Assembly: GCA_029565065.1 (NCBI GenBank)
Contig: JAKQOW010000027.1
Span: forward strand, 1-64,000
DNA length: 64,000 nt
Origin: Acidobacteriota bacterium
GTDB lineage: Bacteria > Acidobacteriota > JAAYUB01
Reading direction: 5' to 3'
The notes below the pieces were generated by a model. The model was not told the origin of the DNA. It saw only the letters and a list, made by a program, of their open reading frames with translations, and did no database searches. Below are positions 22,390-27,104 of the stretch, in pieces. The first letter of the stretch is position 1. The number at the start of each line of letters is the position of its first letter. The position numbers and the translations under genes were made by a program.

Positions 22390-22596
22390 CGCCCGTCGGC
22401 ATCATCTCTTGAAAATATCATGATGACAGCCGCGTTTTCGGCCGAATGGCGGTGCTTGAGGTGAGGCATCAGCGAAGCCGCCGAAGGCCGCTTACCCATG
22501 ACCGGCCTTCGAATATCAGCTTTTTCCAGAATCCCGACATTATGAAAAAAAGTTAACGAAAATAAAAAAAATCTTTTTCCCCGTTCCATTTTTTTC

Positions 22597-22625
22597 TTGA
22601 ACTGCAAGGGTTTTTGATCTATTTA
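22597..22625 (+). promoter_or_regulatory. Possible promoter of the OmpR-type regulator gene
   Basis: TTGAAC (22597-22602), 17-bp spacer, TATTTA (22620-22625), in the AT-rich end of the 276-bp gap 22390-22665. The -10 match is poor. The rest of the gap shows no gene. Confidence 0.35.
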
Positions 22626-22665
22626 TGAATCCGTCAAGGGGGCAAACCCTTATCAGACGGGCACC

Positions 22666-23394
22666 ATGACAGAAAAGCAATTGAAGATCTTGATCGTTGA
22701 CGACGAACCCGAGGTCACTCGATCCATCGCCGCCTATCTCGAACGGATCGGCTACGAACCCCGCGGCCTGAATGATCCCGATCAATTCATGGACACCTTT
22801 CTCGAGTTCAAACCAGACCTGATCATTCTGGACATCATCATGCCGAAGGTGGACGGTGTTGAATTATGCCGATCCGTCCGCCGGCTGCCGCTGTACTGCC
22901 CCATCATCATGCTGACATCCAAGGGCGACGTCGTCGACAAGATCGTCGGTCTTGAGGTCGGCGCCGACGACTATGTCCCCAAGCCGTTCAGCCTGCGTGA
23001 GCTCGAAGCCAGGATCAAGGCGGTTCTCCGCCGACAGATCCTTCAGGCCAAGGCGCTGGACAGTGCCGCCGCCGCCAATCTGCTGCAGCATGGCAACATC
23101 ACCATGGATCTCAAGAACCGGATCCTGAAGATCGGCAAGAAGAAAATTGAGCTCACGCCGAAAGAGTTTGAACTGATGCGGCTCTTCTTGTCCAATCCCG
23201 GCCGCGCATTCAGCCGGGAGGATCTGCTGGAGAAGGTGTGGGGCGATAACTACCGTGGCTATCACCGGACCATCGACTCCCATATCAACCGTTTGCGCGC
23301 CAAAGTCGAATCCAATCCCGAACACCCGGAGATCGTCGTCACCGTGTGGGGCGTTGGATACAAGTTTAACGAGGATTATCAACCCAAAACCTAA
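22666..23394 (+). CDS. OmpR/PhoB-type response regulator
   Basis: 242 residues. The receiver domain (1-120) has the DDE acidic pocket, phospho-acceptor D56 in ILDIIMPKVDG, TSKG with the conserved Thr, and KPF. The C-terminal winged helix (about 145-238) shows KIELTPKEFELMRLF, SREDLLEKVWG and the recognition helix RTIDSHINRLRAKVE, ending in TVWGVGYKF. No histidine kinase gene is next to it. HU follows after 15 bp and probably shares the transcript. There is no strong ribosome site before ATG 22666. Confidence 0.93.
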   Translation: MTEKQLKILIVDDEPEVTRSIAAYLERIGYEPRGLNDPDQFMDTFLEFKPDLIILDIIMPKVDGVELCRSVRRLPLYCPIIMLTSKGDVVDKIVGLEVGADDYVPKPFSLRELEARIKAVLRRQILQAKALDSAAAANLLQHGNITMDLKNRILKIGKKKIELTPKEFELMRLFLSNPGRAFSREDLLEKVWGDNYRGYHRTIDSHINRLRAKVESNPEHPEIVVTVWGVGYKFNEDYQPKT

Positions 23395-23409
23395 CCTTTA
23401 GGAGGTACT

Positions 23410-23679
23410 ATGAACAAAGCAGATCTGATCAAGAAGATGTCGAACGACGCGGACATCACCCTGACCCAGGCGACCAAAGGCTTCAATGCCATCATCGAAG
23501 GCATCGCCAAGGAGCTGTCCAAGAACCGCCGGGTGACCATCGTCGGTTTCGGCACCTTCTCTGTCAGCCACCGGAAGGCCCGCATCGGCCGCAACCCCAA
23601 GACCGGCGCGCCCCTGAAGATCGCGGCCCGCAAGGTCCCGAAGTTCACGCCGGGCAAGGCGCTGAAAGATCGCTTCTAG
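23410..23679 (+). CDS. HU-family DNA-binding protein
   Basis: 89 residues, the standard length of HU/IHF subunits. Seen: MNKADLIKKM start, TIVGFGTFSVSHRKARIGRNP with the DNA-inserting arm (NPKTGAPLKI) and KFTPGKALKD at the end. It has an excellent AGGAGG 6 nt before ATG. It follows the response regulator closely and is closed by a strong terminator. Confidence 0.95.
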   Translation: MNKADLIKKMSNDADITLTQATKGFNAIIEGIAKELSKNRRVTIVGFGTFSVSHRKARIGRNPKTGAPLKIAARKVPKFTPGKALKDRF

Positions 23680-23703
23680 TTCATCCCAGAACAGAAAAAA
23701 ACG

Positions 23704-23832: not shown

Positions 23833-24948
23833 CTAAATCGACATCGGCATGACAATGTACTTGTAGGTGTAATCGAGGTCGCCCGCCGGACGGAACATCC
23901 CGGCGATATTTTCGTCAGTGAATTCAAATCCGACCTGTGGTGTCTCCACCACATTCAGAAACTCCAAAAGATACTGGGAGTTGAAGCCCAACTCCACCGG
24001 ATCCCCCTGGTATTCCACCTCGAGCACCTCTTCGGCTTCACCCTTGTTAACATCCTCGGAGCGCAGCAGGATCCGTCCATCCTCCATTCGGAAAATGATC
24101 CGCTTCGATACTTCATCGGCGAGCACATTGAGACGGTTGATGACCGCCCGCAATTCGTTTGTTTTCAGGACAAACCGGTGATGCAGACTGCGCGGGATGA
24201 CCATTTCATAGTTCGGAAACTGTCCCGCCAGCAGCCGCGAGACCAGAAGCCTGTTCTCGATACGGAAGAAGAGGTTGTTCTCGTTGTGGGCGAACTGGAC
24301 CGTCAATTGCTCTTTCGACAACATCCGTGACAATTCCAAAACGGTCTTCTTTGGAATCAGAATCCGGATATCGGTTTCCAGGTTTTCCAGAACCTTCGGC
24401 GCTTCCACATAAGCCATCCGGTGGCCGTCGGTGGACACCATTTTCAGATAATTATTGTTCATGAGCAGCAGCAGCCCGTTCAGCGCAAACCGGGACTGTT
24501 CCTGGGTCGTCGAGAATATGGTCATCTGGACCATCCGCCGCAGGATATCACCCGGGATATCGAGAAACTCCCCCTGGAACATGGAAATGATGGGAAACGT
24601 GTCCACCGGCAAGCAGACCATGCGCGACTTGGAGCGTCCGTGACTGATGATAACCCGTTCCGAATCCTCGCTGAAAATCTCGATCTCGGCCGATTCCGGC
24701 ATAAACCGGATGATGTCGGTCAGCTCCCGGGCCGGCATCGCCAGCGCGCCTTCTTCCTCGACCGCCGCCGGACACGTGGACTTGATGCTGACCGTCAGGT
24801 CACTGCCAGCCAGCGTCAGACTCTGTGACTCCGCACGGGGTTCCACCAGGACATGAGCCAAGATAGGCATCTTGGAGCTTTTTTCCACAATGGGAGTGAT
24901 GTAGCTCAGCTCGGTCAGAATGTCCTGTCGCTTGACTTTGAATCTCAT
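23833..24948 (-). CDS. dnaN: DNA polymerase III beta sliding clamp
   Basis: 371 residues, the usual clamp length, with a start at ATG 24948 after AGGAG. Typical segments: MRFKVKRQDILTELSYI, EDSERVIISHGRSKSRM, FALNGLLLLMNNNYLKMVSTDGHRMA in the middle domain and the ending YKYIVMPMSI, whose MPM is the hallmark C-terminus of the hydrophobic cleft. It forms the ring that holds replicase on DNA. It lies downstream of dnaA on the same strand, the classical dnaA-dnaN order, with the probable origin between them. Confidence 0.97.
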   Translation of the reverse strand: MRFKVKRQDILTELSYITPIVEKSSKMPILAHVLVEPRAESQSLTLAGSDLTVSIKSTCPAAVEEEGALAMPARELTDIIRFMPESAEIEIFSEDSERVIISHGRSKSRMVCLPVDTFPIISMFQGEFLDIPGDILRRMVQMTIFSTTQEQSRFALNGLLLLMNNNYLKMVSTDGHRMAYVEAPKVLENLETDIRILIPKKTVLELSRMLSKEQLTVQFAHNENNLFFRIENRLLVSRLLAGQFPNYEMVIPRSLHHRFVLKTNELRAVINRLNVLADEVSKRIIFRMEDGRILLRSEDVNKGEAEEVLEVEYQGDPVELGFNSQYLLEFLNVVETPQVGFEFTDENIAGMFRPAGDLDYTYKYIVMPMSI

Positions 24949-25197
24949 CGGCTACTCCTGTCCTATTTCCTGATCAATCGTAAAATTTATAACGGTTGGA
25001 CCAGTAGTAGTAATAGTGCCTGTGGAAAGTGATGATAATCAACGGAATGATTGTAGCATGAACCAGTTGTTTTGTTGAAAAAAATGTTTGGAAACGATCG
25101 CCAAGCTGTGGATAACAGTGATTTGAGTGATACGGGATTGTTTTTCAGAGAAAAGTCACAGACTTTTCCACAGGATGATTGTGAAAATGTGGATAAT
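24949..25197. other. oriC: Probable chromosomal replication origin (oriC) in the dnaA-dnaN gap
   Basis: A 249-bp AT-rich gap. Two perfect DnaA boxes TGTGGATAA lie at 25107-25115 and 25188-25196; near-boxes are TTTTCCACA (25164-25172) and TGTGGAAAG (25021-25029). Immediately beside the last is TGCC, then TAGTAGTAATAG (25005-25016), which read 3' to 5' is four DnaA-trios (GAT AAT GAT GAT), and then an AT-rich stretch TAAAATTTATAA (24981-24992). This box, GC spacer, trio, AT-rich order is the basal unwinding element described for bacterial origins. The cluster at 25107-25196 is beside the dnaA stop. Confidence 0.8.
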
Positions 25198-26523
25198 TCA
25201 GTCAAGTAGAGCACGAAGCCGGTTCAAGGTTGCGCGAAGTTCTGGATCCTTCTCCTTTCGCTGATCGATCTTCTCGATGGCGTAAAGGACTGTCGTATGG
25301 TGTTTGCCACCAAATTCTTTGCCGATACGGGGAAGGGAATGATCCGTGTGCCGCTTGCAGAGATACATGGCGATCTGGCGGGGTTCGGTGATTGCGCGCG
25401 AATTGTTCTTGGAAATCAGGTCGGACACCTTGATTTTGAAAAACTCCGCCACCACCTTTTGGACCCGGTTGATGGTGACGATTCGCTGTTCCGGCGACTT
25501 GATGTTGGTCAGAATCCGCTTGGCCAGGGTGAGATCCAGTTTCTCGCCGGTCAGCGACGAGTAGGCGATGAGACGGATCAGCGAACCTTCCAACTCGCGG
25601 ATGTTCGATTTGATATTTGAGGCAATGTAATAAATCACGTCGTCGGGGATGGGGACGCCTTCGATCTCCGCCTTCTTGCGGAGAATCGCGATCTTGGTCT
25701 CCAGTTCAGGCGGCTGAATGTCGGCGATCAAGCCCCACTCAAACCTTGAGTGCAGTCGTTCTTCGATGTTGGGGATCTCTTTGGGCGGACAATCGCTGCT
25801 GATGACGATCTGCTTCTGGGAGTCGTACAGGGCGTTGAAGGTGTGAAAGAACTCCTCCTGCGTCCGGTCCTTGCCGGACAGGAACTGGATATCGTCCACC
25901 AGCAGGACGTCGATGTTCCGGTACCGCTCGCGGAACAACAGCATCTTGTCGTAACGGATACAGTTGATCAGTTCGTTCATGAACCGTTCGGAGGACATGT
26001 AGACCAACTTGGCTTGGGGTCGTTTCAGCAGGATGTAATGACCAATCGCGTGCATCAGGTGCGTCTTGCCCAACCCAACGCCGCCATAGATATACAGCGG
26101 GTTGTAAGCCGTGGACGGCTGCTCCGCCACCGCCATCGCGGCGGCATGGGCGAACTGGTTGCTGGAGCCGACAACAAACGAATCAAATCGATACTTGGGA
26201 TTCAACCGCACCTGGCCCAGCAGCGCCTGCGCCTGCTCGCCCGTGGCCAATGTTTTCTCCGGACGGAGATAGCCGTTGGTTGTCGTGTCATTGTCCACCA
26301 GGAAGCGGATGCGGTAGCCGTCCAGATCCAGGGACTGTTGAATGCTCTGGAGCAGGTCGGAAAAATTCTCCGTGATCCATTCCTTGTAGTACTTGTTCGG
26401 TACACGGACGACGATCTCGTCGGCGGTTACCCGGGCTGCCTCCGTGGATTCAAACCAGGTTTTGTAGCACTCGGACGATACTTCGCCCTTGACCTTCTGA
26501 AGAATCTGCTTCCACTGATTCAT
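25198..26523 (-). CDS. dnaA: Chromosomal replication initiator DnaA
   Basis: 441 residues from ATG 26523; an upstream GTG at 26565 would add 14 residues of unlikely sequence. Domain I begins MNQWKQILQKVKGEVSSE. The AAA+ domain has Walker A GGVGLGKTHLMHAIG, Walker B VLLVDDIQFL and the box VII arginine region NIRELEGSLIRL. Domain IV ends with RQIAMYLCKRHTDHSLPRIG and the signature GGKHHTTVLYAIEKI, which contacts the DnaA box. It binds the boxes between this gene and dnaN and probably represses itself. Confidence 0.98.
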   Translation of the reverse strand: MNQWKQILQKVKGEVSSECYKTWFESTEAARVTADEIVVRVPNKYYKEWITENFSDLLQSIQQSLDLDGYRIRFLVDNDTTTNGYLRPEKTLATGEQAQALLGQVRLNPKYRFDSFVVGSSNQFAHAAAMAVAEQPSTAYNPLYIYGGVGLGKTHLMHAIGHYILLKRPQAKLVYMSSERFMNELINCIRYDKMLLFRERYRNIDVLLVDDIQFLSGKDRTQEEFFHTFNALYDSQKQIVISSDCPPKEIPNIEERLHSRFEWGLIADIQPPELETKIAILRKKAEIEGVPIPDDVIYYIASNIKSNIRELEGSLIRLIAYSSLTGEKLDLTLAKRILTNIKSPEQRIVTINRVQKVVAEFFKIKVSDLISKNNSRAITEPRQIAMYLCKRHTDHSLPRIGKEFGGKHHTTVLYAIEKIDQRKEKDPELRATLNRLRALLD

Positions 26524-26666
26524 GCGGTGTCCCTTCAGACCGAAAAACCCCTCGTCCAACTCCACGTGACCGGCATGGAATGTTTGTTGTGGACGATGTG
26601 ATGAACAGCCGAGGTGCCCTATTTAAGCACAGTCACCGGCATCGATCAAATGAAAAAAAGAGCCTA

Positions 26667-27104
26667 CTATTTCTTCTGAACAACGGTCAGGACGTGACAC
26701 GGGGCTTTGTGAATCACGGCCTCCTCGATGGAAGTGAAGAACAGGCGGGCGAACACGCTCTTGGCTGAGTTGCCCAGGATGATCAAGTCGATGCCGTGTT
26801 TTTTAGTGAAGCGCACGATCTCCTCAACGGGATCTCCTGCGGACGTGTGGTAAGAAGCCGAAACCGAGGAGAGAAACTCCGCCGGAACGAATTCCAGAAT
26901 CCGCTCGCGCAATTCGTCGCTGGTGTGCCGGGGTGTGTGCTGGGAGCCGGCCACCAGGCTTGGCGCGCCGGCCAGCGGGTCGTCGACGTGCAGAAAGCAG
27001 ACCGTCGCCTTGAACAAGGAGGCGAACTGCACCGCGGTGCGGGCGACGTCGTCGATCAGGTCGTCAAATTCTACCGGCGCCAGGATCTTGTGAATTTGCA
27101 GCAT
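26667..27104 (-). CDS. Universal stress protein (UspA family)
   Basis: 145 residues from ATG 27104 (GGGGAGA upstream). Opening MLQIHKILAPVEFDD has the usual first beta strand and loop; the C-terminal half shows HGIDLIILGNSAKSVFARLF and APCHVLTVV. The ATP-binding G2xG9xG(S/T) motif is incomplete here (LGNSAKSVFARLFFTS), so nucleotide binding is uncertain. A perfect TATAAT on the minus strand lies at 27141-27136, with a poor -35. It is upstream of dnaA on the same strand. Confidence 0.85.
   Translation of the reverse strand: MLQIHKILAPVEFDDLIDDVARTAVQFASLFKATVCFLHVDDPLAGAPSLVAGSQHTPRHTSDELRERILEFVPAEFLSSVSASYHTSAGDPVEEIVRFTKKHGIDLIILGNSAKSVFARLFFTSIEEAVIHKAPCHVLTVVQKK

Follow-up and report, generated by a model that had tools for sequence, protein, structure and literature searches.

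The window covers the first 64,000 of the 101,666 bp of contig C1, which belongs to an Acidobacteriota draft genome of 4.4 Mb in 184 contigs; the DnaN encoded in it has its best named relatives in the Acidobacteriota. The dnaA and dnaN genes lie on the minus strand on either side of an intergenic region of 249 bp, with a GC content of 38% versus 63% for the window. The dnaA reading frame is counted from a GTG, and the alignment of its product to 8btg begins at residue 15; the true start is likely the ATG at 26523. The small gene beside dnaN appears HU-like by eye. The genes and the elements of the gap are the following:

23833..24948, minus strand: dnaN (beta clamp), three DNA_pol3_beta domains
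24949..25197, minus strand: dnaA-dnaN intergenic region, 249 bp, very probable oriC, 38% GC
24974..24994, no strand: AT-rich flank of low stability, probable unwinding element
25002..25016, plus strand: five DnaA-trios, 3'-GAT AAT GAT GAT GAC-5' read on this strand, recognized from sequence
25017..25020, minus strand: GC-rich spacer GGCA; 4-nt spacers recur in relatives
25021..25029, minus strand: trio-proximal DnaA box CTTTCCACA, 2 mismatches (sequence match)
25030..25038, minus strand: TTATCATCA, the upstream box of the weak tandem pair, 2 mismatches, identical in the same-genus relative G001
25050..25078, minus strand: possible dnaN promoter TCAACA-17-TACAAT, recognized by consensus match alone, within the conserved block
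25107..25115, minus strand: distal DnaA box TTATCCACA, perfect; TTATTCACA in G001
25164..25172, plus strand: DnaA box TTTTCCACA, inverted, 1 mismatch (sequence match)
25188..25196, minus strand: distal DnaA box TTATCCACA, perfect; 2 bases differ in G001
25198..26565, minus strand: dnaA, Pfam Bac_DnaA (2.8e-72), Bac_DnaA_C and DnaA_N

Read on the minus strand from dnaA to dnaN, the gap presents TTATCCACA, an inverted TTTTCCACA, a second TTATCCACA, the abutting TTATCATCA and CTTTCCACA, GGCA, the triplets CTA TTA CTA CTA CTG, and finally AT-rich DNA. The two perfect boxes and two near boxes that the preliminary description had listed are all found, the near boxes being TTTTCCACA on the plus strand and CTTTCCACA on the minus strand; the weak TTATCATCA had not been listed. 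The order it gave, i.e., DnaA box, GC spacer, trios and AT-rich DNA, holds on the minus strand and fits the rule of PMC8287927. The draft genome contains the 9-mer TGTGGATAA only 5 times in all, and two of these copies lie inside the gap, 81 bp apart. Of all separate 40-bp stretches in the window, only three are less stable than 24953-24992. A comparison of the gap with plasmids gave no match.

According to PMC8287927, a basal unwinding system (BUS) comprises a box with at most 2 mismatches, a spacer of at most 16 bp and at least 3 NAN trios; its survey of 2070 bacterial origins predicted such systems in 1755, and tandem co-oriented boxes occur in 57% of the predicted cases and are not obligatory. 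The gap arrangement agrees with every sequence criterion of this rule. Box CTTTCCACA has 2 mismatches to TTATCCACA; the 4-bp GGCA lies within the spacer length of 0-16 bp and agrees with the GC-rich segment of about 4 bp expected in it; GAT AAT GAT GAT GAC provides the run of at least three 3'-NAN-5' trios, mostly GAT; and TTATCATCA adjoins CTTTCCACA, both being weak. The DnaA protein is equally consistent, as all six trio-contact and arginine-finger residues compared with 8btg (B. subtilis N187, I190, I193, R202, E228 and R264) are identical. In B. subtilis, a pocket with N187, R202 and E228 captures two bases per trio, and I190 and I193 flank the third base (PMC10721633), and R264 is the arginine finger (PMC8287927).

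The arrangement is rare by chance under a module score covering box, spacer and trios, a score of our own making whose trio weights were taken from the published 3'-GAT-5' consensus and set after inspection of the sequence: out of 300 dinucleotide shuffles of the gap, not one scored as high. Among 1624 overlapping 249-bp windows on both strands of the 101.7-kb contig, only two did, and both are the oriC site. The simpler pattern CCACAN{2,5}CTAYTACTA has one match in this genome, at the oriC site, and matches 28 of 297 genomes of the phylum; 13 of the 30 loci returned carry dnaA in the same stretch (tblastn). This pattern alone is no detector because matches of a reversed control pattern are, judged by eye, common too.

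Conservation within the genus is distributed unevenly over the gap. Between this genome and G001, 108 of 367 fourfold sites of dnaA and dnaN differ (L081). The dnaA-proximal part of the gap, which holds both perfect boxes (25088-25197), shows 21 differences in 110 bp, compared with a single difference in 128 bp at 24960-25087 and none in the 37 bp of boxes and trios (25001-25037), the latter lying within one identical run of 93 bp (24997-25089). Both perfect boxes are altered in G001, the one at 25188 by two changed bases and the other to TTATTCACA. Selection within the gap is therefore tightest on the weak boxes and trios, and, judged from this alignment, it is the module of weak tandem boxes and trios that forms the conserved core, not the two perfect boxes, a reason for care in annotating origins from perfect boxes. 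In the more distant G003, of the same family, TTTTTCACA, at the site matching 25030-25038, is followed by ACTTTCACA, so that the tandem boxes are kept; its trios are degraded and the module score is not reached (L053, p 0.09). Elsewhere in the 12-kb alignment with G001, three identical runs exceed the longest one of the gap (22586-22742, 157 bp; 23578-23701, 124 bp; 23353-23450, 98 bp); these longer runs cover a response regulator gene and the small gene that follows.

Because the promoter-like TCAACA-17-TACAAT shares the conserved block, the constraint need not all stem from an origin. DnaA boxes also regulate genes, and the gap could thus be purely regulatory, its boxes and promoter controlling dnaN (and dnaA) while replication begins elsewhere. 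A promoter, however, leaves unexplained the trios and the 4-nt distance to the box that recurs in many relatives, and the GC-skew switch falls at the gap itself; we consider a purely regulatory role highly improbable.

A skew switch at this site had been proposed as a check, for the whole replicon, in the preliminary description, and it is borne out within the 101.7-kb contig, which extends just 25 kb to the left of the site. The cumulative minimum lies at 24979 for the whole contig and the best single change point at 25000 (500-bp bins). In 2.5-kb bins, the mean skew is -0.035 to the left and +0.031 to the right (Mann-Whitney p 0.0004); 2 of 10 bins are positive on the left and 24 of 30 on the right, the remaining 6 of 30 not being positive. 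Gene direction does not explain the switch, since dnaN and dnaA, both on the minus strand, have opposite third-position skews (+0.147 and -0.055). In G029:C27, examined over 400 kb around dnaN (397179), where the skew is weak and noisy, the minimum lies at 412602, about 15 kb off. In the chromosome-level metagenome-assembled genome CP070717 (G297, L008), which has a short gap, dnaA-dnaN near 1,716,136 is close to a local skew maximum rather than a minimum; the skew of this chromosome is noisy throughout (58 stretches of 20 kb), and it is not used here to place an origin.

The remaining alternative is a bipartite origin, or one located upstream of dnaA, of which the gap would be only one part, as in the two-sided oriC of Bacillus. 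The B. subtilis oriC is indeed bipartite (PMC6669920), and paired boxes are present upstream of dnaA in some relatives of the genome studied here. In this genome, however, the region upstream of dnaA (26566-26720) shows just two isolated one-mismatch box matches, at 26623 and 26708, and we assign this alternative only the slightest probability.

Taken together, the elements and the order in which they stand, their conservation and the skew switch lead us to regard the gap at 24949-25197, with little doubt, as the chromosomal replication origin (oriC), which by analogy with Bacillus would be opened via a BUS-type module. In B. subtilis, the duplex is opened by a DnaA oligomer that grows in cis from boxes #6 and #7 onto the trios, and distal boxes raise the local amount of DnaA (PMC6669920). 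Here, DnaA would bind the distal strong boxes at 25107 and 25188 and the inverted box at 25164, which would raise its local concentration, and would next fill the weak tandem boxes at 25021-25038. The oligomer could then extend 3' to 5' over the plus-strand trios, from 25016 to 25002, capture two bases per trio and open the AT-rich DNA toward dnaN, where the replicative helicase would be loaded. DciA, described as a helicase operator (PMC5109545), is present in the genome (encoded at G000:C158) and probably takes part in this loading.

The gap resembles the BUS at B. subtilis incC in its position between dnaA and dnaN and in that its distal boxes are followed by paired boxes with 3'-GAT-5' trios (PMC6669920, PMC10721633). 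In B. subtilis, the pair next to the trios includes a consensus box, #6 (PMC10721633), whereas here the consensus boxes are the distal ones and those proximal to the trios are weak, each with 2 mismatches. The gap also resembles those of Pyrinomonadaceae (L010, L012 and L019), which contain tandem boxes, a 4-nt spacer and about five trios between dnaA and dnaN; these differ in having more TTTTCCACA boxes and a pair 8 nt apart instead of 9 nt.

The opening module had been described before in Bacillus and many other bacteria, and the picture of initiation is unchanged by the present finding. The finding provides exact origin coordinates for a draft-genome lineage and extends the module to a phylum not covered in the main texts of the cited BUS work. 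Acidobacteria are unnamed in the main text of PMC8287927, although its supplementary tables may well cover the phylum; a literature search combining Acidobacteria with 'basal unwinding system' found none, and one with origin terms returned nothing on point.

Across the Acidobacteriota, 77 dnaN loci were collected, 53 of them with a usable dnaA match in the stretch and 24 without, several of these because the contig ends. After exclusion of 4 short gaps and of L046, which is not from the Acidobacteriota, 48 gaps of at least 100 bp remained, including the window; the loci were not thinned for relatedness, and many are from Pyrinomonadaceae. The module is better than 95% of shuffles (p<0.05) in 35 of the 48 gaps, with a score of at least 6 in 27 of these 35. 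Similar modules are thus present in 34 of the 47 other gaps, and the broad conservation of the basal unwinding system proposed earlier is supported. The recurring form consists of two consecutive boxes, a spacer of 4 nt and some five CTA-like triplets. The 0.05 level is not reached in 13 of the 48 gaps (L001, L004, L007, L053, L055, L056, L058, L061, L062, L064, L065, L067 and L069), two of which, L055 and L061, carry trio runs rejected by the scoring rule.

The earlier placement of the origin in the gap instead of upstream of dnaA stands for this genome and fails for the phylum as a whole: at 4 of the 53 loci with dnaA beside dnaN (L006, L008, L016 and L054), the gap is 24-61 bp long with no boxes and no module. 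These four loci have paired, facing DnaA boxes upstream of dnaA, recognized partly by eye. The dnaA-dnaN BUS may be ancestral in the Acidobacteriota, the four loci having closed the gap and moved the opening site, perhaps to the paired boxes; we give this scenario somewhat less than an even chance. If true, the phylum would constitute a natural test of origin relocation.

In assemblies G004 (L068/L193), G012 (L060/L194) and G016 (L076/L195), dnaA and dnaN are not adjacent, and the G004 dnaA match contains one internal TAA. In assembly G007, where neither dnaA nor dnaN was found, several contig ends (L106, L113, L196 and L198-L205) carry a recurrent TTTCCCACA-CCTCCCACA-GCCC-CTACTACTA followed by GGGGACATTTCT repeats. 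This sequence resembles a BUS module and, by eye, the end of a multicopy, insertion-sequence-like repeat; the likeness may be either a coincidence or the mark of a captured origin piece.
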